From assembly GCF_026241095.1 (NCBI RefSeq), contig NZ_JAPFGB010000003.1:62001-126000 (forward strand): 64,000 nt of DNA, read 5' to 3'. Position numbers and translations under genes: made by a program. This document shows positions 1 through 28,331 of the stretch, piece by piece. Source of the DNA: Saccharopolyspora sp. NFXS83. GTDB lineage: Bacteria; Actinomycetota; Actinomycetes; Mycobacteriales; Pseudonocardiaceae. Numbering within the stretch: position 1 is the first letter of the stretch; every line of letters begins with the position of its first letter. Under the pieces are notes generated by a model that had not been told where the DNA came from, ran no database searches, and saw only the letters and a program-made list of their open reading frames with translations.

Positions 1-1
1 C

Positions 2-1636
2 CTGCGGGTGGACGAGCTTAGAACTCCGAGACCTGGCGGAAAACTGCCGTACTTCCGCTTCCCGCAGTGGCTGTTCTGCTTCCACTGCCGAGGCATGGCG
101 CGCTGGAGCTACAAGTGCGAGAAGGCGAATGAGGCGCCCATGTGCGAGACATGCGGCGGGCGCCGGCAACTGGTTCCGATGCGGTTCGTGGCCGTCTGCG
201 GGAACGGACACCTGACCGACGTGAACTGGTTCCGGTGGGCGCATTCGGACCCGCGTCGTGACCGCAACCAGGCGCAGTGCGCGACGACCGACCTGCGCTT
301 CGAGAACAGGTCCGACGTCGGCGGTGGTCTGCGGTCGCTCGAAGTGGTGTGCCGCCGATGCCGCGCCCACCGGTCTCTGGAGAACCTGACCATGAAGGGG
401 GCGCTCACGCAGATCGGAATGAAGTGCCCCGGTACTCAACCCTGGCAGAGCCAGGCGGATCAGCAACCGTGCAGCGAACCGCTCATCGCAATGCAACGCG
501 GGGCGTCCAGCGTCTACTTCCCCACCGTGGTCAGCGCCATCGACATTCCACCGGAGTCCGACTACTCCGAGACGAGTTCCGTCTCCTCCGCGCTGTCGCA
601 ACGGAAGGACTTCAAGCTCCTCATCTCCGATCCCCAGTACAGCCTGCGCGATGGGATTGTCGCCCACATCGCGCAGGAAATGCAGATCACCCCCGCTGAG
701 GTCGAGGCCGAACTGGCGAGTCAGCTCAGGGAAGAGCCCGGCACCGAACAGGGATCGCCTGACGATATCCACCCGAACGAGTGGAAGGCACTGTGCACAC
801 CTCAGGATCGGCCCGACCCGAGGGACAACTTCATCACCCGGCGAGCGCAACGGCCGGATTCCCGGGTATCCGGCGGATCGTCTGCCGCCGAACTCGCGGC
901 CATCTTGGACGACGTCATCCTGGTGGATCGATTACGCGAAGTACGCGTACTGACGGACTTCAAGCGGTACACCATGCGGGAGTCGGTTCCCGCCAACCTC
1001 TCTAGCCCTGGTGACTTCCTCCCGGCCGTGGAGGTCTTCGGGGAGGGCTACTTCCTGCGTTTCAACGAAAGTGCGCTCACCTCCTGGGAAGCGCAGCCGA
1101 AAGTGCGCGAACGCTTCGGCAAGCTCAGCGCCAGGCAGCAGGCCCACGCATCCTGGCTAACGACACCCACTCCACGGCTTGTGCTCCTCCACACGTTCGC
1201 CCACCTGCTCCTGCGCAACACCGCGTTCGAGGCTGGCTACTCGACTTCTTCGCTCCGCGAACGCCTTTACGTGACCCCTGAGTCGAACCAGCCCGCCATG
1301 GCGGGAATCCTCGTGTACACGGCTGCCGGTGACACCGAGGGAACACTGGGCGGACTCGTCCGGATGGGCGAGTACGAGCGGCTCTCCAGGCTGTTCTACA
1401 CCTCGGTGGCATCGGCGCAGTGGTGTTCCTTCGACCCCGTGTGCGGCGAATCCCCGGGCCAGGGACCGGGCGGCCTGTCGCTGGCGGCTTGCCACGCGTG
1501 CTCACTCGTCCCGGAGACGAGCTGCGTAGCGGCGAACCGGCTGCTCGACCGGAAGCTGCTCATCGACGAGGAGTACGGTTTCTTCACCTCCCTCGCCACG
1601 GCGCTGGACCAGGTTCCCGGTGGAGGAACCTGGTGA
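2..1636 (+). CDS. drmB: DrmB-family DUF1998 protein, 5' end cut by window edge
   Basis: The visible 544 codons are open to the left edge, and the first usable codon (GTG at 8) lies within sequence that family members precede with about 100 more residues, so the N-terminus is probably outside the window. Seen: paired cysteines (CFHC, CETC) near the start, a zinc-type motif around CGNGHLTDVNW, the DUF1998 signature HTFAHLLLRNTAFEAGYS, and a C-terminal cysteine block ending in ACHACSLVPETSCVAANRLL. This order matches DrmB, the core DUF1998 protein of DISARM phage defence, which works with the helicase DrmA. No drmA is visible; it may lie to the left. The stop overlaps the next gene's GTG by 4 bp, so the two are translationally coupled. 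The family call is strong, but membership of a classical DISARM is not established because the downstream genes differ. Confidence 0.8.
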   Translation: MRVDELRTPRPGGKLPYFRFPQWLFCFHCRGMARWSYKCEKANEAPMCETCGGRRQLVPMRFVAVCGNGHLTDVNWFRWAHSDPRRDRNQAQCATTDLRFENRSDVGGGLRSLEVVCRRCRAHRSLENLTMKGALTQIGMKCPGTQPWQSQADQQPCSEPLIAMQRGASSVYFPTVVSAIDIPPESDYSETSSVSSALSQRKDFKLLISDPQYSLRDGIVAHIAQEMQITPAEVEAELASQLREEPGTEQGSPDDIHPNEWKALCTPQDRPDPRDNFITRRAQRPDSRVSGGSSAAELAAILDDVILVDRLREVRVLTDFKRYTMRESVPANLSSPGDFLPAVEVFGEGYFLRFNESALTSWEAQPKVRERFGKLSARQQAHASWLTTPTPRLVLLHTFAHLLLRNTAFEAGYSTSSLRERLYVTPESNQPAMAGILVYTAAGDTEGTLGGLVRMGEYERLSRLFYTSVASAQWCSFDPVCGESPGQGPGGLSLAACHACSLVPETSCVAANRLLDRKLLIDEEYGFFTSLATALDQVPGGGTW

Positions 1637-4600
1637 GTGGGGAAACAACGAGTCCGTGCCCGGACGGCGGCAGATACGCGGTCGTTGCCACTGCCGCCGG
1701 AGTGGACCAGACCCGTGCAGCGGTCAAGTGCCTGGTGAGGCTCCGGCAACGTGGCGCAAGGGCGCGCATCGTCGGCAAGGGACGTGTGCTTCGCGTGCGT
1801 GTCCAGGACTTGCTTCCGTTAGATCTGAAGAGGCGCGGCGTTGTCGGCTACTTTCCGTACGTACGGGACCTCTGGAAGACGGTTCTGGGTTCACAACCGG
1901 ACGGGTTCAGCCACTACGACCTCGAACTGCACGAGTTCCAGGCGCAACTCGGACACCGGTCCTCGAAGCCGGCGCCGCACGAGCAACTCCTGATCATCCA
2001 GGGCCAACAGCTGCCAGGGGACTTCTACGACCTGCTGCGAATGTTGGGAATCCGCGCGACGGTGTTCGTAGACCCCGCTGCGGTAGTCTCGGATCAGGAG
2101 TCGACGATCACCGAGATCGGTCAGGCACTGGGCGTTTCAAATCCGTCGGTGATGGTCGATGTCGACATCCCCAACGCCGCAACACACGCCTTCACCGCGC
2201 ACTTCCACACCGGTTCCGCCGAGTCGAGGGGAAAAACACCGGACAGAACCGGTAACCGGCCCGTCCTCCTCCGGCACGAGGATCACGAGGCCGAGGTCGG
2301 ATTCGTCGTGGACTACGCCAAAGTGCACAGTGGATCGACGATCGGACTCCTGCTGCCGGATTCGGACCAGATGATCAGATTCAGAACAGATTTGCGTCCG
2401 TACTTGGGGAACCGACTCCAGTGGTACCTGTCCAATCGGAGCACCCCCGACAAGCAGGTTTCCCTCAGAGCCCCCGGGGTGAAGATCCTCACCTGGTCGA
2501 GCGCAGCCGGTATGCGGTTCGACAGGGTGATCCTCCCAAGCCTGCACTTCGCACCAGAGGCCCAGCTAGAGCGCGCTTTGAACGTACTCGGCGCTACCGC
2601 CTCCGACGAGCTCGTGCTGTCGTACTCCGGTCCTGGAGAGCCCACGGCGTTGAAAAGCCTTCCCCAGCACCTGTTGGACGAGCGCACCTCGGGCGACGCT
2701 CTGGGGGACTCCTCGGCCGTTCCCGAGCATCAACAGCAAGTTCCGGAGCGGAGTCCGCGTCCCAGATCCGCGGCTGATGCCGCCCGCGCGGTGCTCTTGG
2801 CCGATCGGCGGAGCAAACAGCACCGAAGGCGGGTGCTGACCGCAGAGGAAGAAGTCGGGTTCGCGCAGCTCATGCGCGGAGAGGAGCTGGAACTGTCGCG
2901 GGAACTCCCGCAGCGTTTCAGAGCGGGGCTCCGGGACGAGGACGAACGAGCGGCAGCCTTCGACGCCATGCTGACGCACAACGACGGACTCCTGCGGACC
3001 ACGACCCGGAAGTGGTCGGTGCGCTCCTTCGATGAGGACGACCTGTACCAGTACGGTGTTCTGGGCCTGTTCCGGGCGATCGAGAAGTTCAACGCCTCGA
3101 TGGGTACGAAGTTCTCCACCTACGCCACCCAGTGGATCAACCAGAGCGTGCAGCGGGCCATCCCGGACGAAGGCCTCATGATTCGGGTGCCCGTCCACAT
3201 GTGGGACCTGGTGCGACGAGTCGAGGCCGTGAGAAACAGCCTCGTCCGGGCCGGGCTCGCGGCATCGCCCCGGGAGATCGCTGACCGGACCGAGCTGCCC
3301 GTCTCGAAGGTGGTCGAATGCCTCCGCTTGGCGGCCGGGGTGCACAGCCTCGACGTACCGGTCGGCGACGAGGACGGCACGACCCTCGGCGACCTGTCGC
3401 GCCCGAAGGGAGACGAGGAGCAGAGCCCCGACGCGGTGTTCGACCGCCACGAGGCGGCATCGCTGGTCCGGTCCGCAATGGCACGGCTCACCGACCGCGA
3501 GGCCGAGGTGCTTCGACTCCGCTTCGGCTTCGACGGCGACGAAGGACTGACCCTGGACCGGATCGGCGACCGCTTCTCGCTCACTCGCGAGCGGATCAGG
3601 CAGATCGAGACGAAGGCCCAGCGAAAGCTGGCCAGACACCTAGCCGATGTCGGGGTCGCCGCCGGCTCAGCGGTCGAGGGAACGGAACTGTACCCGGGTG
3701 CGAAGTCCGTCACCTCCCTCCACGCCACTCCGCCGGTCCAGCCGCAGCCCGGAGTCGGAACCTTCCACGAGCTAGCCTGCGGGACCGACCTGATCGCCCG
3801 GTTGGGAACTAGCTACAACTGCAGTGATTCGGTAGCACTCGTACGCGAGTTGGCGGAAAGAGCTATCGCCGCGGGCGCCAGCGCGATATCGATTCGAACC
3901 GGTGTTGGGCGCGCCGGTCCCCGGTTGGTCTTCGCCCACGACGGACCCCCGTTCGCGGGCGACGCACTTCGCACTGCGCTGACCAGGAGGACCGCGGGGA
4001 AGGTCAACCGCTCTCCCGAAGCCAAAACGCTCGGCGCCGCCATCACCCTCTTCGACGAGGTGCAGGTGTGGGACCACGGGCGGCGCAGCAACCCCTACTG
4101 CCTGCTGCTCACCCATGCCCCGCGGACCGGGACCTGGTGGCTTCGATCTGGCACCGGCAGACCTCCCGCAGTCCTGCCGATTCCGGGAAGAACAACCGGG
4201 GAATGCCACGTGGTCTCCTTCCAGGCCCCGAGGCGCGGGGCGAGCCGCGCCGGAGCGACCAGCCTCGCAGCAGCATTCGAATACCAGCTCGGCCTGGTCC
4301 TCGGCGATCTACTCAGGGAGCGGAGGCTCGTCGCATCGGTCGATGGGCACGAAGTCGTGCACCGGCACCCTTTCCTCTGGAACAACCCTGCCGCCCAAGA
4401 CCTGGGAACCGAACCGGTGACAGCGGGAGGTCACTCGGTACTGGTCAATCCGCGCGTGCTCCCGCATCCGGACGTACTTCGCGACGGTGACGAGGCTGCT
4501 GTAGGCCCTCCGCATACGTGGCAGGAAATGCAGGGCTTCTACGTCCGTTGCGAAGGTCGGTACGTGTCATGTTCGGGCTGGCTCGGCCTCGACGGTCTGG

Positions 4601-4794
4601 CTTCCGATGCGGACACGTCGCTCGCCCGCATCGTCGTCGACATCACCTCCGCAGAGGCCGCCGGCTGGCGGCTGGACTCCGGACGACCGATCACGCCGCC
4701 CGCACCGCTGCGTCCCCGGCTGACCGCGCTCGCAATGCTGACCCGGCGTCGATCAGCCCTTGTTCTCGCCCGCCGTCAGGAGGAGCCCAGGTGA
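1633..4794 (+). CDS. Fusion: dead SF1-helicase-like region + sigma-70 factor + GHKL/MORC-like ATPase
   Basis: The 1053-aa protein starts at GTG 1633, with GGAGG 7 bases upstream and a GTGA overlap with drmB. Residues 1-340 resemble the second half of UvrD-type SF1 helicases: a Walker-B-like strand (LLIIQGQQLPGDF, acidic DE lost), then ILTWSSAAGMRFDRVILPSL and a terminal strand LVLSYSG. There is no Walker A, so this part should not hydrolyse ATP. Residues 440-670 are a primary-type sigma-70: region 2 (KFSTYATQWINQSVQRAI), region 3, and region 4 (LTDREAEVLRLRFGF, then TRERIRQIE). Residues 710-1050 look like a GHKL ATPase with an S5-type tail (HDGPPF G1 box, GAAITLFDEVQV, QGFYVRCEGRYVSCSGWLGL). 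The usual N-box Asn is not apparent. I know of no described protein with this architecture. It probably acts with DrmB and the methyltransferases in phage defence. Confidence 0.8.
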   Translation: MSGETTSPCPDGGRYAVVATAAGVDQTRAAVKCLVRLRQRGARARIVGKGRVLRVRVQDLLPLDLKRRGVVGYFPYVRDLWKTVLGSQPDGFSHYDLELHEFQAQLGHRSSKPAPHEQLLIIQGQQLPGDFYDLLRMLGIRATVFVDPAAVVSDQESTITEIGQALGVSNPSVMVDVDIPNAATHAFTAHFHTGSAESRGKTPDRTGNRPVLLRHEDHEAEVGFVVDYAKVHSGSTIGLLLPDSDQMIRFRTDLRPYLGNRLQWYLSNRSTPDKQVSLRAPGVKILTWSSAAGMRFDRVILPSLHFAPEAQLERALNVLGATASDELVLSYSGPGEPTALKSLPQHLLDERTSGDALGDSSAVPEHQQQVPERSPRPRSAADAARAVLLADRRSKQHRRRVLTAEEEVGFAQLMRGEELELSRELPQRFRAGLRDEDERAAAFDAMLTHNDGLLRTTTRKWSVRSFDEDDLYQYGVLGLFRAIEKFNASMGTKFSTYATQWINQSVQRAIPDEGLMIRVPVHMWDLVRRVEAVRNSLVRAGLAASPREIADRTELPVSKVVECLRLAAGVHSLDVPVGDEDGTTLGDLSRPKGDEEQSPDAVFDRHEAASLVRSAMARLTDREAEVLRLRFGFDGDEGLTLDRIGDRFSLTRERIRQIETKAQRKLARHLADVGVAAGSAVEGTELYPGAKSVTSLHATPPVQPQPGVGTFHELACGTDLIARLGTSYNCSDSVALVRELAERAIAAGASAISIRTGVGRAGPRLVFAHDGPPFAGDALRTALTRRTAGKVNRSPEAKTLGAAITLFDEVQVWDHGRRSNPYCLLLTHAPRTGTWWLRSGTGRPPAVLPIPGRTTGECHVVSFQAPRRGASRAGATSLAAAFEYQLGLVLGDLLRERRLVASVDGHEVVHRHPFLWNNPAAQDLGTEPVTAGGHSVLVNPRVLPHPDVLRDGDEAAVGPPHTWQEMQGFYVRCEGRYVSCSGWLGLDGLASDADTSLARIVVDITSAEAAGWRLDSGRPITPPAPLRPRLTALAMLTRRRSALVLARRQEEPR

Positions 4795-6545
4795 CCGATC
4801 AGGCACAGGTCGGCTTCGTGCACGAACTCAACCAGCGATTGCAGGACCGCATCGAGGCCGAACCCGAGCTGATGATGCGCGACGCCTTCGTGAGCCACGT
4901 TGGAGAGCATCTGATCGACGACGGGACGCTGGACGACCTTGAGACCTGCTATCTGCACATGCCGTGGCAGAACCGCCGCGTCGAGGTGGCGGGTTACGAC
5001 ATCACCAGTGCCGGGACGATCCTGCACCTCGTCGTCGCCGAGCACGGGCTGTTCGGAGCTCCGGTGAAGCGGGACCGGATCGATCAGATGATCAGGCGAG
5101 CTGGCGCGTTCGCCGACTTCTGCCGGGGCGGCAACCACGAGCTGCTCGAACGGTCCAGTCCCGCCTACGACATGGCGCAGCGCATCCACGAGGGCTGGCC
5201 GGAGTTCCAGATGATCAGGATCTTCGTGCTGACCGACGGAACTGCCTCCATCCGGAAGATGCCCGAGGTCACCGTCGCCGGACTACCCACCGCAGTGCAG
5301 ATCTGGGACCTGACGAGGATCCAACGCCTCACCAGCAATGGCGGCGAGCAGGAGGAGATCCTGATCAACCTGTCCGAACTCGGGTACGCGGTGCAGTGCC
5401 TCGAGTCACCGCAGCAGGCAGACGGATACCGGTGCCTCCTGACGGTCCTGCCGGGCAGACTGCTCGCCGACCTGTACCACGAGCACCACAGCCGGATCCT
5501 GCAGCGCAACGTGCGAGCGTTCCTCCAGGCTCGCGGCAAGGTCAACAAGGGGATCGCGGAGACCATCCAGAAGGAGCCCGGCCGCTTCCTGGCCTACAAC
5601 AACGGTGTGTCGGCGACGGCGAAGGCTGCGAGGGTGGATCCCGGGCCGACTGGTCCGATTCTTCGCGAACTCACCGAGTTGCAGATCGTGAACGGTGGCC
5701 AGACGACCGCTTCCCTGCACCACGCAGCGCGGCGGGGGCTCGACCTCTCCGAGGTGCACGTCCCGGCCAAGATCACGCTGATCAGCGACGAACGGCTCGA
5801 CCCGATGATCCCGGACATCTCCAGGTACGCCAACTCCCAGAACGCGGTGACGTCGGCCGACTTCGAGGGCAACAGTCCCTTCCACGTCGGCCTGGAGCGG
5901 CTCTCCCGGTCGCTCTGGACTCCTGCGGATTCCGAGGGCAAACAACGGCGTTGGTACTACGAGCGGGTTCGCGGCCAGTACGACGTGGACCGGGGGCGCA
6001 ACACCACACCCGCCCGGAGGCGGCAGTTCGATCTGGACAACCCGCGGACCCAGCGCTTCGGCAAGACGGACGCCGCGAAGTACGAGTACGCCAGTGAACG
6101 CCGACCGGACGTGGTCTGCCTCGGCGGCCAGAAGTGCTTCCTGCGGTGGACGGAGGAGGAGCAGCTCGACAAGCGCGAGGCTCCTGCACCAGATTACTTC
6201 CGCCACCTCGTCGCCAAGGCGATCGTCTTCGCCGAGATGCGGCGCCTGATCAGACGGGAGGGGTTCGGCGGTTACCTCGGGCAGACGACGGCGTACACGG
6301 TGTCGCTGATCAACGAACGGCTCGGCGGGCTCGACCTGAACCTGATCTGGCACATGCAGCGGCTACCCGACGAGCTCGCGGAGATCGTCCTGGTTTCGGC
6401 TCGAGCGGTGCGCCAAGTGCTGATCAACCCACCCGGTTCGGGAAACGTCACCGAGTGGTGCAAGAAGCCGGACTGCTGGGAGGCAGTGCGCGCGGTGCGC
6501 TGGGAACCGTCGGCAGCGGTTCAACAGGCGGTGGGCGCGCGGTGA
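4791..6545 (+). CDS. AIPR-family protein
   Basis: 584 aa, starting at GTG 4791 with AGGAGG about 8 bases upstream and a GTGA overlap with the preceding gene. The central part carries the AIPR (abortive-infection phage resistance) signature: FLAYNNGVSATA, then LQIVNGGQTTASLHHA, then PAKITLISDE and RYANSQNAV. The N-terminal 230 residues have no motif I can name, though strands such as GTILHLVVAEHG resemble the nuclease-like start of AIPR proteins. AIPR proteins are linked to phage resistance and often sit beside methyltransferases and Z1/MORC-type ATPases; their biochemical activity is poorly defined. Position inside this coupled operon argues that it is a functional component, possibly the effector, which is inference. 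Confidence 0.8.
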   Translation: MTDQAQVGFVHELNQRLQDRIEAEPELMMRDAFVSHVGEHLIDDGTLDDLETCYLHMPWQNRRVEVAGYDITSAGTILHLVVAEHGLFGAPVKRDRIDQMIRRAGAFADFCRGGNHELLERSSPAYDMAQRIHEGWPEFQMIRIFVLTDGTASIRKMPEVTVAGLPTAVQIWDLTRIQRLTSNGGEQEEILINLSELGYAVQCLESPQQADGYRCLLTVLPGRLLADLYHEHHSRILQRNVRAFLQARGKVNKGIAETIQKEPGRFLAYNNGVSATAKAARVDPGPTGPILRELTELQIVNGGQTTASLHHAARRGLDLSEVHVPAKITLISDERLDPMIPDISRYANSQNAVTSADFEGNSPFHVGLERLSRSLWTPADSEGKQRRWYYERVRGQYDVDRGRNTTPARRRQFDLDNPRTQRFGKTDAAKYEYASERRPDVVCLGGQKCFLRWTEEEQLDKREAPAPDYFRHLVAKAIVFAEMRRLIRREGFGGYLGQTTAYTVSLINERLGGLDLNLIWHMQRLPDELAEIVLVSARAVRQVLINPPGSGNVTEWCKKPDCWEAVRAVRWEPSAAVQQAVGAR

Positions 6546-6645: not shown

Positions 6646-8514
6646 GTGGGAACGTACCGGGTGAAACTGCATCGCAGTGAGCGGCTCGAACTGGATGACC
6701 ATCCGGAGTCGTGCACTGTGGAGAATTTCCGGGCGTGGTGCACCGAACGGGTCGAGGGAGGAGCCCGCCTGGCGATCGACCTGTTCTCGGGCGCCGGTGG
6801 TCTCAGCCTGGGCATCACCCAGGCCGGTTGGACGGTCGCGGCGTCCGTGGACAACAGCCGGTTCGCGCTGCGGACCCATCGCGCCAACTTTCCGGGACTC
6901 GCCTTGGACACGGATCTCGGCGATCCGACCGAACGCCGAAAACTGGTCGGCTTACTCCGGTGTGTCGACATTGATCTGGTCGCCGGCGGACCGCCTTGCC
7001 AGCCGTTCAGTCGCGCAGGGCGCAGCAAGATCCGCAGCCTCGTCGACGCCGGACTTCGTACCGAGCATGACGAACGACGGGAACTGTGGCGCGCGTACCT
7101 GGACGTCGTCCTGCGGGTCCGCCCGCGAGCCGCGTTGATGGAGAACGTCCCGGAGATGGCTCTCGGCGACGACTTCCACGTCGTGCGCACCATCATCGAT
7201 GAACTGGAAGAAGCGGGCTACCGAACTGATCTTGGCCTGGTGGACGCATGGAGGTACGGCGTTCCCCAGCACCGGAAGCGGCTGATCCTGCTCGCTCGCA
7301 GGGACAGCGATGAGTTTAACTGGCCGGAGTCCAGCGCGGCCGTGACGCTGCGCGAGGCGATCGACGACCTGCCGGAGCTGGGGGAAACGACGGGTGCCCG
7401 GGAGCTTGAGTACGAGGCACCGCCGAAGCTTTCCGCATTCGCGGCCCTGATGCGCAAGGACTGCCCGGAGAACTTCGTGTGGGACCACATGACCCGGCCG
7501 GTCCGCGACGACGACCGCAAGATCTTCGAGCACATGACCTCCCAGACGCTGTACTCCGAGATCAAGCCTGACCTGCGCCGCTACAAGGCCGACACGTTCG
7601 ACGACAAGTACAAACGGCTGGACTGGAACGCCCGGAGCCGATCGATCACTGCGCACATCGCGAAGGACGGGTACTGGTACATCCACCCGGAAGAACACCG
7701 CACCCTGACCGTTCGCGAGGCCGCACGCATCCAGACCTTCCCGGACTGGTTCCGATTCGTCGGAAATCGAAGCCACGCGTTCCAGCAGATCGGGAACGCG
7801 GTACCACCGCTTCTCGGACAGGCAGCGGCAAGCGCCCTGCATCTCCAGCCAGACCGACCAAAACAGCGGATCAACCAATGGCGCCTCCTGCGCAATCGAC
7901 TGACCAGATGGGCCGAGAAGAACCGCCAGAGCCGTTACTGGTGCCTTCTCCCCGGACCTCAGCTGGCGCCGGTCACCGCCGCCGTCGTTACGCTTCTCGA
8001 ACCGGGGCCACCGGAGCTGCGGTTGCTGAACCGGCCGCTCGCCGAAGTAGCGAACAACGGTCGGATCACCGAGCATGCCATGGCCATGCTCACCGGAATC
8101 CTCACGACGCGGTCCGAAGTCTCCGCAATTGGGAGGCTGCGAGCTGCCCAGGACGATCAGGAAGACCCGGCGAAGCCGGATGACCTGCCCGATGTGCTGG
8201 GGCTCAGGCCGGGCCAGACGGCGCTCCTCCGGCTGCTTGTCGGCGAGGACGTCCTGTTGACCACCAACCCGGTGCTCCGGGTGTCCGCCCGTGTGTTGGG
8301 CACCCGGTCGGATCAAGCCAACACCCTGACCGACGGCAGGGTCGACCTGGCGAGGCTCGTCGGTGGCGGAGAGCGTGCGCCGCTGCGAATGGCGGCGGTG
8401 CGGCTGGTCGGTCAGCTCTACTGCACGAGGCTGAACCCGATGTGCGGGCAATGCCCGCTTTCTCGCAACTGCGTGTACGCGCGGAAGGAGAGGCCGACGG
8501 GGCTGCTCTTCTGA
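6646..8514 (+). CDS. DNA (cytosine-5) methyltransferase with C-terminal HhH-GPD/Fe-S-like domain, copy 1
   Basis: 622 aa from GTG 6646 (AGAGG 8 bases upstream). Residues 1-410 hold the C5-methyltransferase motifs: I (DLFSGAGGLSLG, 45-56), IV (GGPPCQPFS with catalytic Cys118), VI (ENV, 166-168), VIII (QHRKRLILLARR), IX (AARIQTFPDWF) and X (QIGNAVPP). The last 200 residues resemble an EndoIII/MutY-type DNA glycosylase: a strand ending LRVSARVLG, then VDLARLVG, then cysteines 593, 600, 603 and 609 spaced C-X6-C-X2-C-X5-C as in the [4Fe-4S] loop. The catalytic Asp expected before LRV is Thr and the usual Lys is not apparent, so this tail may bind rather than cut DNA. It presumably methylates host DNA to mark self, as DrmMII does in class 2 DISARM. 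Confidence 0.85.
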   Translation: MGTYRVKLHRSERLELDDHPESCTVENFRAWCTERVEGGARLAIDLFSGAGGLSLGITQAGWTVAASVDNSRFALRTHRANFPGLALDTDLGDPTERRKLVGLLRCVDIDLVAGGPPCQPFSRAGRSKIRSLVDAGLRTEHDERRELWRAYLDVVLRVRPRAALMENVPEMALGDDFHVVRTIIDELEEAGYRTDLGLVDAWRYGVPQHRKRLILLARRDSDEFNWPESSAAVTLREAIDDLPELGETTGARELEYEAPPKLSAFAALMRKDCPENFVWDHMTRPVRDDDRKIFEHMTSQTLYSEIKPDLRRYKADTFDDKYKRLDWNARSRSITAHIAKDGYWYIHPEEHRTLTVREAARIQTFPDWFRFVGNRSHAFQQIGNAVPPLLGQAAASALHLQPDRPKQRINQWRLLRNRLTRWAEKNRQSRYWCLLPGPQLAPVTAAVVTLLEPGPPELRLLNRPLAEVANNGRITEHAMAMLTGILTTRSEVSAIGRLRAAQDDQEDPAKPDDLPDVLGLRPGQTALLRLLVGEDVLLTTNPVLRVSARVLGTRSDQANTLTDGRVDLARLVGGGERAPLRMAAVRLVGQLYCTRLNPMCGQCPLSRNCVYARKERPTGLLF

Positions 8515-8664: not shown

Positions 8665-10551
8665 TTGGCCACCTACGGGGTTAAGCTGCAACGCAGCAAC
8701 GATTTACGACTCGACAGCCATCCCGGCGGCTGCATCGAGGAGACCTTCGAGCAGTGGTGCTCGGAAAGAACCGCCCAAGGTTCCCCGCTCGCCGTGGACC
8801 TGTTCTCCGGAGCAGGTGGGCTGAGCCTCGGGCTGCAGGACGCCGGGTGGACCGTCGCCGCCTCGGTGGACAACAACGAGAAGGCATTGCAGACCCACCG
8901 GCACAACTTTGCAGGCCTGGCACTGGATCTCGACCTCGCCGATCCCGCCCAACGCCGCAGTCTGGTGAACCTGCTCCGACGAACCAGGATCGACCTCCTC
9001 GCCGGCGGACCTCCCTGCCAGCCCTTCAGCCGGGCGGGCCGCAGCAAGATCCGCAGCCTCGTGCTCGCAGGGCACCGGGAGGCGCACGATCACCGAAGAG
9101 AGTTGTGGCAGGCTTTTCTCGATGTCGCCCTGGCTTTGCGGCCCCGAGCCGTTCTGATGGAGAATGTTCCGGACATGGCGCTCGGCGATGACTTCTCCGT
9201 GGTGCGAACCATGGTCGATGCCCTTGAGTGCGGTGGATACCACACGCAACTCAAGCTTGCCGATGCTTGGCGGTACGGCGTGCCGCAACACCGCAAACGG
9301 CTGCTGCTCCTCGCACGTCGGGATTGCGACCACTTTTCGTGGCTTACCGAGAAAAGCAAAGACGAGCAGACGACCCTCCACGACGCGATCGGGGACCTGC
9401 CAGCTCTCGGCGGAACGACGGGTGGCAGGCAGCTTCGGTACCGGAAACCCCGGAATCTTCCCGGTTTCGGCGAACTCATGCGGGCCGACGCGCCATCCGG
9501 GGTGGTATGGGACCACATGACGAGGCCGGTGCGCGACGACGACCGCGAGATCTTCGCACTGATGGATTCCACCACGTTGTACAGCGACCTGCCCGAAAAG
9601 ATGCGCCGCTATAAGGCCGACACGTTCGACGACAAGTACAAGAAGCTCGACTGGAACTCCGTAAGTCGATCGATCACCGCGCACATCGCGAAGGACGGCT
9701 ACTGGTACATCCACCCGGAAGAACACCGCACCCTGACCGTTCGCGAGGCCGCACGCATCCAGACCTTCCCGGACTGGTTCCGGTTCGCCGGAACCCGCAG
9801 CGACGCCTTTCGCCAGATCGGCAACGCAGTTCCCCCGTTGCTCGGACGAGCAGCGGCGGCTGCACTCCTGCCGGTGTCCAAATGGAAGGAGCATGACAGC
9901 GGGGAGCAATCGCGATGGATGAGCGCGCGAAAGGCACTGACCTCCTGGGCCAGGCAACAGCGAAGCGGTCAGCACTGGTACGCCCTGCCCGGGCCCAGGG
10001 TCACCGTGGCCGTCGCCGCGGTTGCCGCGGTGCTGCTCACCCGAGCCACTGCCCCGAAGGGCATTGACAAAGCCCTAGCCGTGATTCGCGGCTGCGCACG
10101 TGTGAACAAGGCCGAGCTGGATCAGGTTCAGCAGGAACTGCGAACCAAGCCCGGGAAAGCCGCAGTGCAGCGTTTCAGACCGTTGCTCCCGAAACGGAAC
10201 CTCTGGCACGACCCGGAGCTGATGGTGGACGGCCTCGCGATGAAACCGGCTGAGGAACGGATTTTTCGCCTGTTGTGCAACGACGACGTGCTGTTGGCAA
10301 CCCAGTCCACGTTGCGGGTTGCGGCCCGGGTGGCAGGCACGGACTCGGACCGGACAAACCGGCTGAGCAACGGCCGGGTTGATCTGGCGCGGCTGGTGGG
10401 GGCGGGCCCGGAGGCACCCCTTCGAGCGGCGGCGCTCAGGTTGCTCGGCAGCACGGTTTGCAGCACGCTCACGGCGAAGTGCGCCGAATGTCCCCTCCGG
10501 CAGCATTGTCCGGGCAGCTCGCAGGGGGGAACGACCGGTCGGCAGCGCTAG
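8665..10551 (+). CDS. DNA (cytosine-5) methyltransferase with C-terminal HhH-GPD/Fe-S-like domain, copy 2
   Basis: 628 aa from TTG 8665, chosen because GGAAGG lies 8 bases upstream and the first residues (ATYGVKLQRS) align with copy 1. All methyltransferase motifs are present (DLFSGAGGLSLG, GGPPCQPFSRAGR, ENVPDM, QHRKRLLLLARR, AARIQTFPDWF, QIGNAVPPLLG). The C-terminal glycosylase-like region is more worn than in copy 1, but it keeps the four cysteines at 599, 606, 609 and 615 with identical C-X6-C-X2-C-X5-C spacing. The catalytic Asp is again replaced (TQSTLRVAARV). The two copies are close paralogues over the catalytic part and diverge in the middle and tail. They may recognise different sites or act as a heterodimer; neither can be decided from sequence. 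Confidence 0.85.
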   Translation: MATYGVKLQRSNDLRLDSHPGGCIEETFEQWCSERTAQGSPLAVDLFSGAGGLSLGLQDAGWTVAASVDNNEKALQTHRHNFAGLALDLDLADPAQRRSLVNLLRRTRIDLLAGGPPCQPFSRAGRSKIRSLVLAGHREAHDHRRELWQAFLDVALALRPRAVLMENVPDMALGDDFSVVRTMVDALECGGYHTQLKLADAWRYGVPQHRKRLLLLARRDCDHFSWLTEKSKDEQTTLHDAIGDLPALGGTTGGRQLRYRKPRNLPGFGELMRADAPSGVVWDHMTRPVRDDDREIFALMDSTTLYSDLPEKMRRYKADTFDDKYKKLDWNSVSRSITAHIAKDGYWYIHPEEHRTLTVREAARIQTFPDWFRFAGTRSDAFRQIGNAVPPLLGRAAAAALLPVSKWKEHDSGEQSRWMSARKALTSWARQQRSGQHWYALPGPRVTVAVAAVAAVLLTRATAPKGIDKALAVIRGCARVNKAELDQVQQELRTKPGKAAVQRFRPLLPKRNLWHDPELMVDGLAMKPAEERIFRLLCNDDVLLATQSTLRVAARVAGTDSDRTNRLSNGRVDLARLVGAGPEAPLRAAALRLLGSTVCSTLTAKCAECPLRQHCPGSSQGGTTGRQR

Positions 10552-10756
10552 CGGCCAGATCTCGGCTCTGAAGACACCCAGCACACCGCGGTGCGGTTGG
10601 CGGTCGGCGCCACGTCGAAGCGCGACCGTACCCATCGGCGGACGTTCTCGACGAAGAAGCGCTCATGTTCGGCGAACCAGTCATGATTGAACGAGGACGA
10701 GGACTCCTGGATGAGCGCCATCTCGTCCTTGCCGTCCGTTCAGTAGGCGCCGAAGA
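10552..10756. other. Intergenic region, no confident gene
   Basis: This gap separates the defence operon from the convergent IclR gene. A 57-codon minus-strand reading frame (10721 to 10548, beginning MALIQESSSSFNHDWFAEHE) overlaps the end of the methyltransferase gene. It has a coding-like look but no recognisable family, so I do not call it. Confidence 0.4.
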
Positions 10757-11467
10757 TCATTGTCGGCGGTACGTCGGCGGCCTCCGGATGCTCGACTCTG
10801 ACCCGCCGTCCACCGTCGTGGTCGACGGTCTCGGTGTGACCAGCTTGCCCGCGACCGGCTCCGCGGCTTGGGCCACGAGGTGGCCGAACGCCTCGCCTGG
10901 AGAGGGGACTCGGGGGAGCGGCGCGGCGACGCAGACGGCGGCGACGATCTCGCCGTGAGCGCGCACCGGCGCGCTCACAGACCCCAGTCCAGGTGTCCGT
11001 TGCGAGACACTTTCGAACCACCGGCGGTTCGACTCGGACGAATCGTCCGCCGAGAGAGCGGCCGCGGCAGAACCTCCCTCGGACTGCGGCAATGCCGAGC
11101 CGGCGGGCAAGAAGACCCGGAGTTCGGACTCGGATTCGGCGCCGACCAGGCACAGGCGTTGATCCCCGCGCCGGACCCACAGCTGCGCCGATTCCCCCGT
11201 CTCCTGGACCAGCCACTCCAGCACCGGGGTGGCGGCGTCGGCGAGTTGCGAGGAGGCGAACCGCTGTCCGAGGTGATGACGGCCCTCTGCGTCACGCCGC
11301 AGCAGATTGTGGGCGACCATGCCGGCGGCGAGGCGCTGCGCCGTGGGCGCCGACAGGCCCAGGTGGCGCGCGAGCTCGCTCGACCCCATCGGCCGCCGCT
11401 CGACGGCGTCGAGAATGGCGACAACGCGATCGAGCACACCAACGCCGGTCTGGTTCTGCACGCGCAC
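10757..11467 (-). CDS. IclR-family transcriptional regulator
   Basis: 236 aa from GTG 11467 (GTG 11461 is an alternative). The N-terminal winged helix is clear (GVLDRVVAILDAVERRPMGS, then ELARHLGLSAPTAQRLAAGM), followed by the IclR effector domain (VLEWLVQETGESAQLWVRRG, then VSAPVRAHGEIVAAVCVAAP). IclR proteins bind small carbon-source metabolites and repress or activate nearby catabolic genes. No obvious target gene sits directly beside it. The sugar-acid operon 2.2 kb away has its own GntR regulator, so its target is unknown. In-frame sequence upstream of the chosen start has no IclR-like features and is left out. Confidence 0.75.
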   Translation of the reverse strand: MRVQNQTGVGVLDRVVAILDAVERRPMGSSELARHLGLSAPTAQRLAAGMVAHNLLRRDAEGRHHLGQRFASSQLADAATPVLEWLVQETGESAQLWVRRGDQRLCLVGAESESELRVFLPAGSALPQSEGGSAAAALSADDSSESNRRWFESVSQRTPGLGSVSAPVRAHGEIVAAVCVAAPLPRVPSPGEAFGHLVAQAAEPVAGKLVTPRPSTTTVDGGSESSIRRPPTYRRQ

Positions 11468-12364
11468 ATTCTGCCCCAGCCGACAGTGCACGGTCGCCCG
11501 GTGGGGACAGGTCGAGGATGTCGACGCCTGTTGAGCCTTGGGCTGGCGAGGATGCTGCCGACGAATGATCCCTTGGCGCAGAGCCGGACGTCGCCGGGGT
11601 GTCCCCAGGTCTCCGATGCCGGCCGCGCGCCGCTGGTGCTCGTCGGGGATGCGGCTCGTCGCCCCAGCGCATCGGCGTCGAGCAGGCAGTTCTCCTTCCA
11701 AGGCTTGGAAACGACCTCGGAGGCGGTGGGCGCGATCGCGCTCAGCCGGCCGTACTTGTCACCGTCGCGCTTGCTGCACAGGGCCAAGTTCCACTCCGGA
11801 CCACTGGGCGGCGGTCGGCTGAACACTTGGTTGGTGGTGTTGGCGGACGTGGTGGGCGAGTGCGTGAGCCGATGCCGAGTTATCGGCAGAGATCGCCCGC
11901 TGGTGCAGACTCCGGTGTTGAGCATCGAGTCGGTAAGCCTCACGCAGCGGGTCGTCCTGAGCGGGGCACTGCCGGGCCGTGGGCGTGCTGCTGGCGTATT
12001 GAACAGGCATGTTTGTTCGTATTCGTGCTCGGTGCTGGCACCTCGCAGGTGGCTGTTGCCGGTTCGACCTGAGCCTGTTCGGTGTCTGCTTGCCCGGCTT
12101 CCTCGGAGCCGGGCTCTACGGCCGTGGCGGTCCTGGGGTGCGTGGTGGCGCTTGAGGGCCTGGTTGAGCAGTTCGACTGACAGCAGCAGTGCCAGAGTCG
12201 TATGAGGCCGGCTGCGGGGCGGGGGTTCGTTTCAGGCGCGGTGATCGGGCTTCTGGGGCCCCGCCGTCGTTGCGGCGGCTTTTGTGGTGGGTGGTCGAGC
12301 GAGTTCCGGGTGGGCGCGGCGCCCAAGGCTCGTTCGCGCGGCGACGACGTGCTGACGAAACTCG
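11468..12364. other. No recognisable gene (897 bp)
   Basis: Several frames on both strands are open here, as expected for GC-rich DNA, but none shows a domain, a plausible ribosome site and coding-like codon use together. It may hold decayed genes. Confidence 0.4.
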
Positions 12365-22586: not shown

Positions 22587-23810
22587 TCAGGGTGTGTCCG
22601 GTGTCCGGTCGCGGTGCTGGTCGAGCTGCTCGGCGAGGTCCTGCTCACCAGCTTCCAGGACGAGGGCGCGGAGCCGGTGTACGTCCAGATCGGGGAACTC
22701 GAGTTGGGCGCCGAGGATCGCGATCAGGCCCGCCAGCTCCTCGGGGCGGTGGTGGGCGCGCCGAAGCAACTGGTGCGTCCGCGCCACCAGGGCGCGGCGC
22801 CGGACATCGGCGTCGCGGCACCAGACCCGCACCGCCACGTTCCCCAGGCTCAGGTACGAACCGACAAAGGACTCCTTGCGCGGCCCGGTCGGGGCGAACG
22901 CGTCGGCAGGGAGATCGACCTGCCACGATCCGTCCGGATCCTGCATCGGTTGGACGTCGGAGAGGTTCCGCTTGCGCAACCACCCCGTGATGGTGTGCCG
23001 CTGATCCTCGACCGACGGGGGCGACACCCGGAGCGCACTGGTGATGTCCGGATCGGTGGTGCACAGCTCGCTGAGATCCTCGTCGAACTCCCCACCCGTG
23101 TCCGCGCCGTAGGCGAGCCGGGAGACCTGTCCACCGCTCGCCACCGCGTGCACCACGTGGAGGCGGAGGAACACGTACTGCGGGCGGACGTCCAGCGGAT
23201 TCTCGACGGTGGTCGGGAGGTTGAACTCGGTGCGGTCGGTGCGGTGAGCCAGGTTCACCAACGCGTCCCGGTGGAACTGGTGCGCCGTGGGCAGGAACTG
23301 CAACCAGCGGTCCCGTTCGGCCAGTGCCATGGCCTCGGCGCGGTTGAGCAGCGCCGTCGGCGGCGAGTAGTGCCGCCGGTGCAGCGGCTCGCAGCGGTAA
23401 CCGTCGAAGTAGATCTTTCGCCGGTCTTCGCGCCGGACCTCGTAGCAGGTGCCGTCACGCAGCGAGGCGCGCGCGAGGTCGGTGAGTTCGAGTGCGTCCC
23501 GATGAGGGGGAAGATGACCGATGCCGCGCAGCACGCGGACCGCCCGGTCCACCAGAACCGGTTGCAACCCCAGCAGTTCGGCGATCCCGTCGACCGAGGC
23601 GGCGCCCGTCTCGGCGATGGCCCGTTCGATGAACTTGTCGATGAGGCCGTAGGGCCGGTCCGTCGTGGTGGTGGCCCGCACCTCCACCTCGTGCACCGGG
23701 AGGAGCACGGTGCGCAGCCGGACGGGGTGCAGGCCCTGGCGGAACGCGGCGTCCTCCAAGACCTTGAGCGTGGCGTCGCCGTTCCGGGGCGATCGTTCGG
23801 GAGGCATCAT
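22587..23810 (-). CDS. Unknown protein with winged-helix-like segment, helicase partner
   Basis: 407 aa from ATG 23810, overlapping the helicase stop (ATGA) so the two are coupled. Residues 45-110 (DKFIERAIAETGAASVDGIA, then LLGLQPVLVDRAVRVLRGIG) read like a winged helix-turn-helix. The rest is basic and arginine-rich, with no family I recognise. Coupling to a COG1112-type helicase suggests a nucleic-acid-binding or adaptor subunit, which is inference. The nuclease gene follows 88 bp downstream. Confidence 0.55.
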   Translation of the reverse strand: MMPPERSPRNGDATLKVLEDAAFRQGLHPVRLRTVLLPVHEVEVRATTTTDRPYGLIDKFIERAIAETGAASVDGIAELLGLQPVLVDRAVRVLRGIGHLPPHRDALELTDLARASLRDGTCYEVRREDRRKIYFDGYRCEPLHRRHYSPPTALLNRAEAMALAERDRWLQFLPTAHQFHRDALVNLAHRTDRTEFNLPTTVENPLDVRPQYVFLRLHVVHAVASGGQVSRLAYGADTGGEFDEDLSELCTTDPDITSALRVSPPSVEDQRHTITGWLRKRNLSDVQPMQDPDGSWQVDLPADAFAPTGPRKESFVGSYLSLGNVAVRVWCRDADVRRRALVARTHQLLRRAHHRPEELAGLIAILGAQLEFPDLDVHRLRALVLEAGEQDLAEQLDQHRDRTPDTP

Positions 23811-26713
23811 GCTCCGTTTTCGTTGAGCCGGGCTGTGACGTCGTGGTAGGTACGCAGGTCTCCGGCGTCCCGCACGATGTCGCTCAGGGCGTGGATCAGT
23901 TCCCGAACGCCCGGGTCCTTCGCGCTGTGCAGGGTCGTCAGATCGCCGACGAGCACGAGCAGGCGCTTGGCGCGGGTGAGCGCGACGTTCAGCCGTCGCA
24001 GTTCGGTGAGGAACCCGACGTCGCCGTGGCGATTGCTGCGGGTGAAGCCGTAGAGCAGCACCTCCCGCTCACCACCTTGGAACGCGTCCACGGTGCCGAT
24101 GTTGGCGTCCAGTGTCTGCGGATCCGCCCACTCCCGCGCCAGCTGCTTGAGGTCGTCCAACTGCGCGCGGTACGGAACGATCACCGCCCAGTCGGCGCCG
24201 TCCTTGTGGTAGTGCTCGGCGAGCCGATCGAGCAGCCGAGCTTCGGCCTTGTTGCGGAATCCGCGCTCTTCGCCGCGAGCCCCGGTCTCGTGCCGGTCTC
24301 GTTCGGAGAGGCTCGACGTGTCCACGAAGGACAGCGGGCTGCCGAACAGTTGATCCCGCTGCGGTGGCGGCACTTCCGACCGCAACATGCCCTGATAGAA
24401 GTGGTCCGAGATGAACCGCGCGATCACGGCGGGCATCCGGCGTTGGGTACGTAGCTGGACCACGTTTGCGGTGGGCAGGATGCCGACCAGAGATTCGAGC
24501 AGGCTCGTGCCGGCCAGTTCTACCAAGTGCTCCGCCCCGCCCCGCCGCTCGATTGCCGCGTCCACCGCGGGCTCGGGAACCGGTGGCAGCTGCTTGTCGT
24601 CACCGACGAGTACGGCGCGTCGTCCCCGGACCAATGGGATCAGCGCGTCGGAGGTCCGGATCTGCCCGGCCTCGTCGAGGACGACCAGGTCGAACTCCTC
24701 CGCGGCGATCTCCTCCCGCGACCCGGCCGAAATGCAGGTCGAGCCGATCACGTCGGCGTAGCGCAGCAGCTCCGGGTGCAGCTGCCCGGTGCGGCAGGAT
24801 TCGACCTCGGTGTGCCAGTCCGCCAACAGCCCCGCTCGAGCGTGCAGCAGGTTCAGGCGAGACCGCAGTGCGTGGTGCAGGTCGGTGAGCGACTTCAACA
24901 GGCCCTCGTCGCAGCCGGGGTCGCCGATCTCCGGCAGCGGTTCCACCGCCAGCAGGGTGGTGCGGAGCGCCGCCGCAGCGGCCCGCGCGTAGTCCCGGTG
25001 CCGATCGGCCTCGGAATCGGCCGCGTCGAACTTCCGTTGCGCCGCCTGCACTTCCGGGGCGTTGCCGACCACGGTTTCCAGCTCGGCGGTCGCCTCCGAG
25101 TGGGCGCGTCGGGTCTCGTCGAACGCGTACGATCGGACGGCCAGGGTGGCTTTGCCGCGCGCGAGCCGGCGATCGCGCCACCACGCGAGCACGCCCCGAC
25201 GCTCACCGTCGACGGCGGGGGAGGATGCTTTCTGGCTGAGCCGGTCCACCAGCCGTTGCGAGCGGTGGACGCGCTTGCGGGCCCGGCCGATTCGCTTGTC
25301 CTGCTTGCGCACCCGCTCGTAGACCGGGCCGCCGACGGCGCGGCGGCACCTCTCGAGTTCCGCTGCACAAGCATGCTGCTCGCTGCGGGACGACACCCAC
25401 GAATTCAGCCGGGTACCGAGTTCGGCGTGCCACTGCACCGCTTGCGGCAGCATCGAGTAGAGCCCAGCCCTGCGACCGGCACCGACGGCCAGCTCCTCCC
25501 TGAGCTCCTCGGCGTAGACCTCCAGCAGGAACGGCCGAACCTCGGGGTCGATCTGGTGCTCCCGTCCGATACGGATAATCACCATTCGATCCTGGGGCAA
25601 CCGGGCCAGCACGTTGTCCACCGCTTTGTTGGAGTACGAGGAGACCAGGGTCTTCCCCTGCCCGCCGTCCGCCGCGGCCGCGGCGATCTCGGTGATCACC
25701 CGAGTCTTGCCGGTTCCCGGCGGCCCGAGCACCACCAGCAGATCGCGAACCGACAGCGCCCTGCGAAAAGCCGTCAGCTGCTCCGGATCGAGTCGTTGAG
25801 CAGGGGTCTCGGGACGCCCGGTCACCGGCGCTACTTGGTGGTCAACCAGCACCTCCATCAGCGACCGGTGGCGAGACTGCCGGGACCGGAGCATTTCGGC
25901 GGCATGACGTCGTTGGGTGTGGATCGTGTTGAAGCGGGCCGGTGATAGCTGGCCGCGCTGCGGTAGTCGCGCGTGGTCCAGCGGTGCGTCGAACCGCACC
26001 GTCGCAGCACGACCTGTTACTCGCAGCACCGTCCCCCTGCGATCGCCGTGACCGTCGAGCAACACTTCGTCGCGTGCTTTCGGGGCGCGGCCGACGATGC
26101 GGAACGAGTAGGTGCTCGTTCCGGCGTAACCATGATCGCCGACCGCTGTTACCTCCTGGTAGGCGAATCCCCCTTGGTGCGAGAGAGTTTCGCCCGCGCT
26201 CTCGCGCGCGATGTCGTTGAACTCGGTGAGCCGGTCCAGGAAGCGCACCTGCCCGGTGCTAAGGCGCGGGACCGAGTTCTGCTCCGCGAGTTCCTGCTGG
26301 AGCCGGAGCCACTCCTTGCGCAGCTTTTCCCAGCTCGTCGAGGAGTCCTGCGGTATGTCCCGGGGACGCGCCGCAATACGCCAGCCGCAGCGCACCAGCA
26401 GGCAGCCTTCGACGAGTGCCGCGTGCGCGCGCAACCCCAGCGGCTTGACACGGTTGACCCAGTAGAAGTCTTGCTGGTCGCTGACGGTGAGGTGGACGAC
26501 GTAGTTGTAGGTGTGCAGCTGGAGCACGGGCTTTTCCCGTGATCCGGAGATGACCGCCGGTGCGCCGTCCGGACGGACCTTTAGATCATGGATTATCTGG
26601 TCGAGTCCCGTCGGCATGGTGGTTGTCGTGCCGCGCACCTCGTGCAGGCTCCCTTGGAACGATCTGCCGGGCACGAGGTGGATCGGCTTGGTCAGCTGGA
26701 CGTCTCTGAGCAT
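23807..26713 (-). CDS. SF1 Upf1/Dna2-type helicase (COG1112-like)
   Basis: 968 aa from ATG 26713, 5 bp after the stop of the kinase-like gene; longer open sequence upstream belongs to the other gene's antiframe. Motifs: Walker A GPPGTGKT (330-337), SYSNKAVDN (Ia), LVVLDEAG (II), VGDDKQLPP (III), RTQRRMP (IV), NIGTVDAFQGGER (V) and LRRLNVALTRAK (VI). A coiled, arginine-rich insert of about 200 residues separates Ia and II. COG1112 helicases act on RNA or DNA and form the core of the Mokosh defence system, where a kinase domain is fused on. Here the kinase-like part is a separate upstream gene. Confidence 0.9.
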   Translation of the reverse strand: MLRDVQLTKPIHLVPGRSFQGSLHEVRGTTTTMPTGLDQIIHDLKVRPDGAPAVISGSREKPVLQLHTYNYVVHLTVSDQQDFYWVNRVKPLGLRAHAALVEGCLLVRCGWRIAARPRDIPQDSSTSWEKLRKEWLRLQQELAEQNSVPRLSTGQVRFLDRLTEFNDIARESAGETLSHQGGFAYQEVTAVGDHGYAGTSTYSFRIVGRAPKARDEVLLDGHGDRRGTVLRVTGRAATVRFDAPLDHARLPQRGQLSPARFNTIHTQRRHAAEMLRSRQSRHRSLMEVLVDHQVAPVTGRPETPAQRLDPEQLTAFRRALSVRDLLVVLGPPGTGKTRVITEIAAAAADGGQGKTLVSSYSNKAVDNVLARLPQDRMVIIRIGREHQIDPEVRPFLLEVYAEELREELAVGAGRRAGLYSMLPQAVQWHAELGTRLNSWVSSRSEQHACAAELERCRRAVGGPVYERVRKQDKRIGRARKRVHRSQRLVDRLSQKASSPAVDGERRGVLAWWRDRRLARGKATLAVRSYAFDETRRAHSEATAELETVVGNAPEVQAAQRKFDAADSEADRHRDYARAAAAALRTTLLAVEPLPEIGDPGCDEGLLKSLTDLHHALRSRLNLLHARAGLLADWHTEVESCRTGQLHPELLRYADVIGSTCISAGSREEIAAEEFDLVVLDEAGQIRTSDALIPLVRGRRAVLVGDDKQLPPVPEPAVDAAIERRGGAEHLVELAGTSLLESLVGILPTANVVQLRTQRRMPAVIARFISDHFYQGMLRSEVPPPQRDQLFGSPLSFVDTSSLSERDRHETGARGEERGFRNKAEARLLDRLAEHYHKDGADWAVIVPYRAQLDDLKQLAREWADPQTLDANIGTVDAFQGGEREVLLYGFTRSNRHGDVGFLTELRRLNVALTRAKRLLVLVGDLTTLHSAKDPGVRELIHALSDIVRDAGDLRTYHDVTARLNENGA

Positions 26714-26718
26714 GCGCC

Positions 26719-28155: not shown

Positions 28156-28331
28156 CAGCAACCGTCCTTAGGTTCTTGATCGGTACCAGCGAGAAAGTGC
28201 CACATCGGGCGCGTATGGAGTCGTTCGGGTCGGGAGTTGTCCAGTTTTTGTCCAATGGGCGCGGTCGGAGTGTCCACCGGGGCGTGCTGTCATGGACGTG
28301 ACGCGACCCGGCACCGGACGAAGAGGACGCC
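28156..28331. promoter_or_regulatory. Divergent control region of SEFIR genes
   Basis: 176 bp lie between the divergent SEFIR-pseudokinase operon and the single SEFIR gene. The two SEFIR proteins may therefore be expressed together. I see no clear -10/-35 boxes or inverted repeats. Confidence 0.35.

Follow-up and report, generated by a model that had tools for sequence, protein, structure and literature searches.

A sigma-70 factor joined to two motif-dead ATPase-derived domains in a DISARM-type operon of Saccharopolyspora

What does a sigma-70 factor do inside a protein of a phage-defence operon? The question is raised by a stretch of 64,000 nucleotides from Saccharopolyspora sp. NFXS83 (NCBI RefSeq assembly GCF_026241095.1, contig NZ_JAPFGB010000003.1, positions 62,001 to 126,000 of the forward strand), referred to here as the window. 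Close to its start, at 1633..4794 on the plus strand, a single unbroken frame encodes P0001, a protein of 1053 amino acids in which a dead superfamily 1 (SF1)-helicase-like domain is followed by a sigma-70 factor and a dead GHKL-S5 domain. The gene begins with a GTG codon overlapping the stop codon of the DrmB gene, and its relatives start at the same position. A first-pass annotation made from the letters alone had described this order of domains, and the present analysis followed it up computationally.

The fusion and its sigma part

Among 297 genomes of the family, ten had a match at E <= 1e-60, the own genome counted. The nine P0001 relatives from the other genomes are 41-45% identical to it across almost the entire length and contain zero internal stops; with P0001 they form the ten window-type fusions. 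Five further, more diverged fusions come from a second family, which makes 15 fusions in 15 genomes. All 15 share the build of SF1-helicase-like, sigma-70 and GHKL-S5-derived parts, the second-family fusions keeping only the S5-like portion of the last. Their neighbourhood is conserved as well. The order NERD-helicase - DrmA - DrmB - fusion - MzaE was found in the window genome and in 9/9 same-family relatives, and DrmA - DrmB - fusion - MzaE - Dcm in 5/5 second-family loci. As the first-pass annotation had proposed to look for, other proteins of the same architecture thus exist (nine in the same family and five in the second one), and a DUF1998 gene, namely drmB, adjoins the fusion at 15/15 loci. 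No relatives were found in the viral sequences scanned. A profile search of genome contigs with the full fusion alignment was discarded as a source of further fusions, as its 80 loci matched over the sigma part and were mostly RpoD-like; 17 of these loci served as outgroup.

The nine stop-free relatives of like architecture indicate that the fusion is real and old. The ratio of non-synonymous to synonymous substitution rates (dN/dS) was 0.10-0.32 in each of four segments, measured on six pairs from six window-type relatives, P0001 being too distant for use. This purifying selection on every segment of the tested pairs implies that the dead domains are still needed. Mean pairwise identity was highest in sigma region 2 (0.72), followed by region 4 (0.68), the S5-like part (0.62), the N-terminal domain (0.55) and the GHKL part (0.48). 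An assembly artefact or a decaying gene would fit the death of both ATP sites, but with 15 unbroken fusions in as many genomes and the low dN/dS of every segment it is hardly credible. In particular, the earlier doubt that sequencing errors had joined separate genes is contradicted by the same evidence, and this explanation was ruled out.

The sigma part (2818..3636, +; residues ~396-668) extends from a region-1.2-like segment to region 4.2, as judged by Pfam and residue comparison. Sigma regions 2 to 4 in the middle of the protein, as annotated before, were confirmed by Pfam with all matches over the cut-off (Sigma70_r2 448-510, Sigma70_r3 540-588 and Sigma70_r4 615-666 of P0001), while the region-1.2-like segment (~396-440) was recognised by eye against RpoD of the own genome. 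Among the PDB sequence matches of P0001 (E up to 1), the best 60 of 84 were all sigma factors or pieces of them.

Related sigma factors also occur as separate genes beside unfused operons, which are described below. In the sigma tree, the 15 fused and eight separate sigmas grouped together with 100/100 support, apart from 20 RpoD-type sequences and MzaA of Thalassospira; one separate sigma that ends early (L124) was excluded. The Thalassospira MzaA sigma grouped with E. coli RpoD (99/89). A derivation of the sigma part from MzaA was thereby rejected, on the strength of the one MzaA included, which has a long branch. In one separate sigma, a match to Sigma70_r1_1 stayed below the cut-off.

Residue by residue, the 23 fused and separate sigmas keep much of an RpoD-like surface. 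The equivalents of R584, E585, R588 and Q589 (E. coli numbering), which are the residues reading the -35 element, are invariant in 23/23. Q437 and R441 are kept in the 23 sigmas, the D403 equivalent in 23/23 and Q406 in 22/23, and most positions of region 2.2 are kept. Regions 2.3/2.4 of the window-type sigma carry changed residues.

Dead flanking domains and unfused cousins

The N-terminal domain (1675..2682, +; residues ~15-350) is an SF1/HelD-like pseudo-helicase, delimited by its match to unfused SF1 proteins. Residues 1-380 alone matched no Pfam family at E up to 1 and no PADLOC model at E up to 0.1, and a profile of the fused N part alone found no credible solved structure. Against the unfused SF1-helicase-like proteins, the N-terminus matched with E values of 7e-30 to 2e-44 (single genomes) and with 99.8% in hhalign. 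These unfused proteins are encoded directly after DrmB at ten loci. In the nine with an unbroken gene, the motifs are intact and comprise G-x-x-G-x-G-K-[TS], DE[GA]Q, KGL[ED]FD and [TS]R[AT]R; the SF1 gene of L156, which lies in two frames, was excluded from the motif comparison and from the tree of N domains.

The first-pass annotation had noted the loss of Walker A and of the DE pair of motif II. Both losses were found, and others with them. In 10/10 window-type fusions, the Walker A lysine is replaced by Q, motif V has lost its lysine, and motif VI has lost its first arginine (that of TRA). The DE pair of motif II is gone from all ten, except that the E (not the D) is kept in L024. The second motif VI arginine is kept in 8/10, having been lost in P0001 and L022. 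In the five second-family fusions, the Walker lysine is replaced by M and the DE by VD, but RN and TRAR are kept; judged by these motifs, their N domains are in an intermediate state. The fused N domains occupy one side of a branch with 100/99 support, in agreement with a single origin of the fusion, on which the sigma tree is neutral (AU p 0.475). A tblastn search with the N domain against plasmids and phages gave no matches. The N-terminus of MzaA was rejected as a counterpart, as it is ankyrin-like and the profile match was not significant.

The best solved match of the separate SF1 family was 6wvk_H (E 1.2e-16, labelled 'DNA helicase IV'), presumably HelD on RNA polymerase. It was followed by two helicase fragments, UvrD, HelD 6yxu_H (3.4e-5) and GajB. 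HelD of the own genome matched 6yxu_H at 1.3e-185 and also 6wvk_H. A profile of the nine separate SF1 proteins scored 103 bits on the HelD-like protein L125, 78 on own-genome HelD, 62 on a GajB-like helicase, 49 on UvrD and 19 on the NERD-helicase, and its match to HelD was restricted to helicase-core segments. HelD acts on RNA polymerase. Compared with HelD, its best solved-structure match, the SF1 domain has about half the length and is dead in the fusions.

The C-terminus (~708-1044) consists of a GHKL (Bergerat) pseudo-ATPase part (3754..4212, +; residues ~708-860), assigned by MzaB-type match and motif comparison, and an S5-like part (4213..4764, +; residues ~861-1044), the better conserved of the two. 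It matches MzaB-type GHKL-S5 proteins (hhalign 99.8%), and residues 701-1053 gave a PADLOC match to MzaB only (P0001 against MzaB, E 1.3e-16). A profile of the MzaB-type proteins finds MutL and MORC structures, while one built from the fused C part by itself gave no credible match among solved structures. The N-box asparagine, the Asp of DxGxG (now H or C) and most of the lid are lost in 10/10 window-type fusions, P0001 included, as determined by eye; the entire GHKL half is missing from the five second-family fusions. N-box, DxGxG and lid are intact in 9/9 separate MzaB-type proteins, three of which come from second-family fusion loci, versus 0/15 fusions. Of the GHKL-S5-type ATPase annotated earlier, the MutL/MORC-like homology therefore stands, but activity as an ATPase is not supported by the sequence, since these motifs are gone.

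The ATP motifs are thus broken in both outer domains of 15/15 fusions and intact in the unfused relatives (SF1 9/9, MzaB-type 9/9). Walker A, DE[AG]Q and the NERD residues (the last by eye) are intact in 10/10 NERD-helicases beside the window-type fusions, so these helicases do not share the motif decay. The SF1 helicases beside second-family fusions are intact in 5/5. The DrmA P-loop is present in 15/15; the DrmA check covers this motif, a motif II pattern having found nothing at the expected place.

The unfused loci allow the link to the sigma factor to be assessed. DrmB (NF038324) was found in 59 of 394 genomes of the class, at 70 places. Fifteen of these are of the SF1 type; 33 others (two shortened by contig ends) and L118 made up 34 controls, and the remaining 21 lay outside the comparison. 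Two hits were left out of the count of loci, namely an N-family hit in G612 and one in G438 that scores as a HelD-like protein. At 9/10 unfused DrmA-DrmB-SF1 loci, a sigma gene adjoins the drmA or NERD-helicase gene, divergently in 6/9 and in the same direction in 3/9. The tenth locus, L121, is counted in the denominator and has no sigma gene, even when 11 kb more on one side (L147) are included. Among the 34 DrmAB loci without SF1 partner, 0/34 had a sigma gene within a surrounding stretch of ~20 kb (two stretches shorter). No AIPR (MzaE) gene turned up at those unfused loci that have a separate sigma gene.

Some unfused parts are broken. The sigma gene at L124:3067-4317 ends early and the SF1 gene at L156:9205-10316 is split in two frames, which reflects either occasional decay or sequence errors. 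Two further proteins, at L238:1031-4627 (1198 aa) and L239:3156-6662 (1168 aa) beside NERD-helicase/DrmAB operons, carry the same kind of sigma together with a helix-turn-helix (HTH) and a GHKL-like region. GHKL-like motifs were seen by eye, and the region in L238 matches the PADLOC candidate PDC-M33A. They represent a different sigma-ATPase fusion.

Docking, regulation and the operon promoter

An element of the form GTAAC-N17-CGA lies upstream of the NERD-helicase gene at L006:12934-12960 (G000:C23:56934-56960), L006 being the stretch that reaches ahead of the window. It was found upstream of the first gene in 10/10 window-type operons, or in 9/10 under a stricter cut, as it touches the called start in L023. 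Its distance to the NERD-helicase start is ~133-141 bp, with start codons matched by eye, and 186 bp in the window genome. It was not found in 5 + 10 other operons. The element was first spotted by eye, hence post hoc. Nine spaced patterns are common to L016-L021, and any of them recurred in the window genome, L022 and L024 together in 0/2000 shuffles; when L023 was required within the strict cut, no shared pattern emerged. The exact form TGTAAC-N17-CGAY occurs 8 times in the 6.9 Mb genome versus 3 for the reversed control. These comparisons of upstream sequence show a conserved, promoter-like site; they do not indicate which sigma factor reads it. It resembles a promoter of the extracytoplasmic function (ECF) type. 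TTGACA/TANNNT-like sites were not enriched upstream of 24 operons (mean best score 6.81 versus 6.89 for shuffled sequence; for L160, the drmA start was set 39 nt inside the called start in the upstream-site tests and in the identity comparison of the segments).

The reading favoured here, tentatively and at somewhat less than even odds, is that P0001 is a non-catalytic adaptor which docks RNA polymerase or promoter DNA onto a DISARM-type helicase-nuclease complex. It builds on the RpoD-like features kept in the sigma part, on two ATPase-derived flanks that are dead yet under purifying selection, and on the intact-looking catalytic partners in the operon, i.e. the NERD nuclease-helicase, the DrmA P-loop, AIPR and the cytosine methyltransferases. 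The sigma part would dock core RNA polymerase and, by way of it, DNA that is transcribed or carries a promoter. Taking the place of the SF1 protein that accompanies DrmA-DrmB in unfused loci, the HelD-like part would anchor P0001 in the helicase complex, and the S5-like tail would replace MzaB and provide the connection to MzaE/AIPR. In this way, the AIPR effector and the machinery of NERD-helicase and DrmAB could be led to RNA polymerase engaged on invading DNA that is unmodified, self being marked by the methyltransferases. Covalent joining suggests a common site of action for sigma and complex, and the findings suggest a defence that works through the transcription machinery of the cell. 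A wider form of the idea is transcription-coupled restriction, in which a dedicated sigma family of one DrmAB lineage recruits RNA polymerase as targeting subunit and the fused ATPases are pure scaffolds; it is somewhat unlikely.

Several observations weigh against docking. In 23/23 sigmas, the E407 equivalent of region 2.2 has been replaced by H, Y or W, which could weaken core binding. The W433 and R436 equivalents are gone in 10/10 window-type fusions; both are kept in 5/5 second-family fusions, and in 7/8 and 6/8 of the separate sigmas, respectively. Ordinary promoter opening may be impaired by this loss, which fits docking and equally plain loss. The N domain measures ~365 aa versus 736-774 aa for solved HelD chains, and the likeness covers the helicase core only; by this length, the polymerase-contacting arms of HelD would be absent, so the likeness is a hint only. 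Several of the ten unfused loci are closely related to each other, which leaves fewer than ten independent cases, and the six divergent sigma genes sit at the usual place of a regulator.

The last point leads to the main rival, over which the adaptor is favoured. P0001 might be a dedicated regulator. Its sigma part would then guide polymerase to the operon's own promoter, and possibly to further ones, with the dead ATPase domains as built-in sensors or anti-sigma-like gates releasing it only on infection. This possibility, though doubtful, is a serious one. It would account for the position of the separate sigma genes next to drmA or the NERD-helicase gene, for the invariant -35-reading residues, and for an upstream element found in window-type operons, whose sigma is changed in regions 2.3/2.4, but not in the 5 + 10 others. 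Against this, the element looks less like a site for an RpoD-like region 4 than like an ECF promoter, canonical-like sites are not enriched, and a regulator has no need for covalent joining to a structural component. The sigma surfaces kept while both ATP sites died, and the 4-nt overlap of the fusion and AIPR genes, would also suit a guard. In this case P0001 would sit on host RNA polymerase, and phage takeover (by anti-sigma, sigma appropriation or polymerase modification) would displace it and free the AIPR effector or the nuclease. This is improbable, as the DISARM-type core suggests direct attack on DNA and MzaE was not found at the loci with separate sigma genes. Slightly less probable still is a sigma part that serves as DNA-binding module only, sensing melted or -35/-10-like DNA independently of RNA polymerase. 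Invariant -35-reading residues beside a changed core-side E407 equivalent would agree with it, but the D403 and Q406 equivalents are kept, and a whole multi-region sigma would be uneconomical for DNA binding alone.

Known systems and genomic surroundings

One defence system with a sigma factor is already known, namely MZA, for which NCBIfam and PADLOC have families, the sigma factor included. As in MZA, a sigma-70 protein, a GHKL ATPase (MzaB), AIPR (MzaE) and a cytosine methyltransferase share one neighbourhood, and the homology to MzaE and MzaB is clear. However, P0001 scored 206.2 bits on MzaA (NF041931), below the cut-off of 800 and over profile positions 473-702 only; the MzaE of the operon scored 364.2 bits on NF041935 (cut-off 1050), and the MzaB-homologous C-terminus is fused and motif-dead. 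MZA-like operons are mentioned in PMC9523054, with mzaA 'present only in a few'. A role of the MZA sigma factor was not found stated in the literature examined. With DISARM, the operon shares DrmA, DrmB and DrmMII-like methyltransferases, but it has an extra NERD-helicase, the sigma fusion and AIPR. DrmC, a phospholipase D (PLD) protein whose gene is a defining one of DISARM, gave no hit among the PADLOC matches listed for seven operon proteins. The operon is neither canonical DISARM nor MZA; it is a hybrid in which NERD-helicase, DrmA and DrmB are DISARM-type and MzaE/AIPR and the GHKL part are MZA-like.

DrmA-type (YprA) helicases occur in the varied defence operons ARMADA, BRIGADE and TALON, the last with a NERD nuclease (PMC12458937); in the main text of this paper, AIPR, GHKL, MutL and 'sigma factor' do not occur. 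Prokaryotic MORC/paraMORC proteins are GHKL-S5 proteins of restriction operons with AIPR as a common companion (PMC2292703). Their ATP-binding motifs are conserved, unlike those of P0001, and 'sigma' is absent from the text of that paper. BrxL has a sigma-HTH-like domain according to PMC12839542. In the literature searched, which omits most subscription papers, no paper was found in which a sigma factor is fused to DrmA/DrmB or paired with them. The first-pass statement that no protein of this order had been described therefore holds there for the fusion, but a sigma factor, GHKL and AIPR in one defence operon were already known from MZA. In the present operon, the sigma factor is bound covalently into the defence machinery, with enzymatic neighbours dead by clear, reproducible decay. 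The fusion ties DISARM to MZA and possibly to HelD-type polymerase factors, and the unfused cousins offer a natural comparison by which the role of a sigma factor in phage defence is directly testable.

The operon starts ahead of the window with the NERD-nuclease/SF1-helicase gene (L006:13120-14694) and the DrmA gene (L006:14694-17852; PADLOC E 1.3e-207). The DrmB family (DUF1998/MZB) gene (1..1636, +) starts ~150 nt before the window (L006:17849) and scored 391.7 bits on NF038324 (cut-off 240). Downstream of the fusion, the MzaE-like AIPR protein (4791..6545, +) is a near full-length homologue. It is followed by two C5-cytosine methyltransferases of the same build (6646..8514 and 8665..10551, both +), which matched DrmMII models with E values of 1e-82 and 7.5e-82; a type II methyltransferase model was slightly better. 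A methyltransferase lies directly 3' of MzaE in 8/9 relatives, while L022 has one upstream in divergent orientation. Both methyltransferases of the operon end in an EndoIII/MutY-type C-x6-C-x2-C-x5-C loop, present in 19/24 homologues checked, and are probably methyltransferases joined to a glycosylase-like Fe-S module.

Two genes of the phage integrase family lie shortly upstream of the operon (L006:9498-10316 and 10476-11522), so that it may lie in a mobile element; no tRNA was found in L006 or the window. Further defence-like genes stand at 23807-28886 of the window. Those on the minus strand encode a MkoA-like AAA_11/AAA_12 protein (23807-26713) and a kinase-like protein whose Pfam match is below the cut-off (26719-28074), and one on the plus strand encodes a SEFIR protein (28332-28886).

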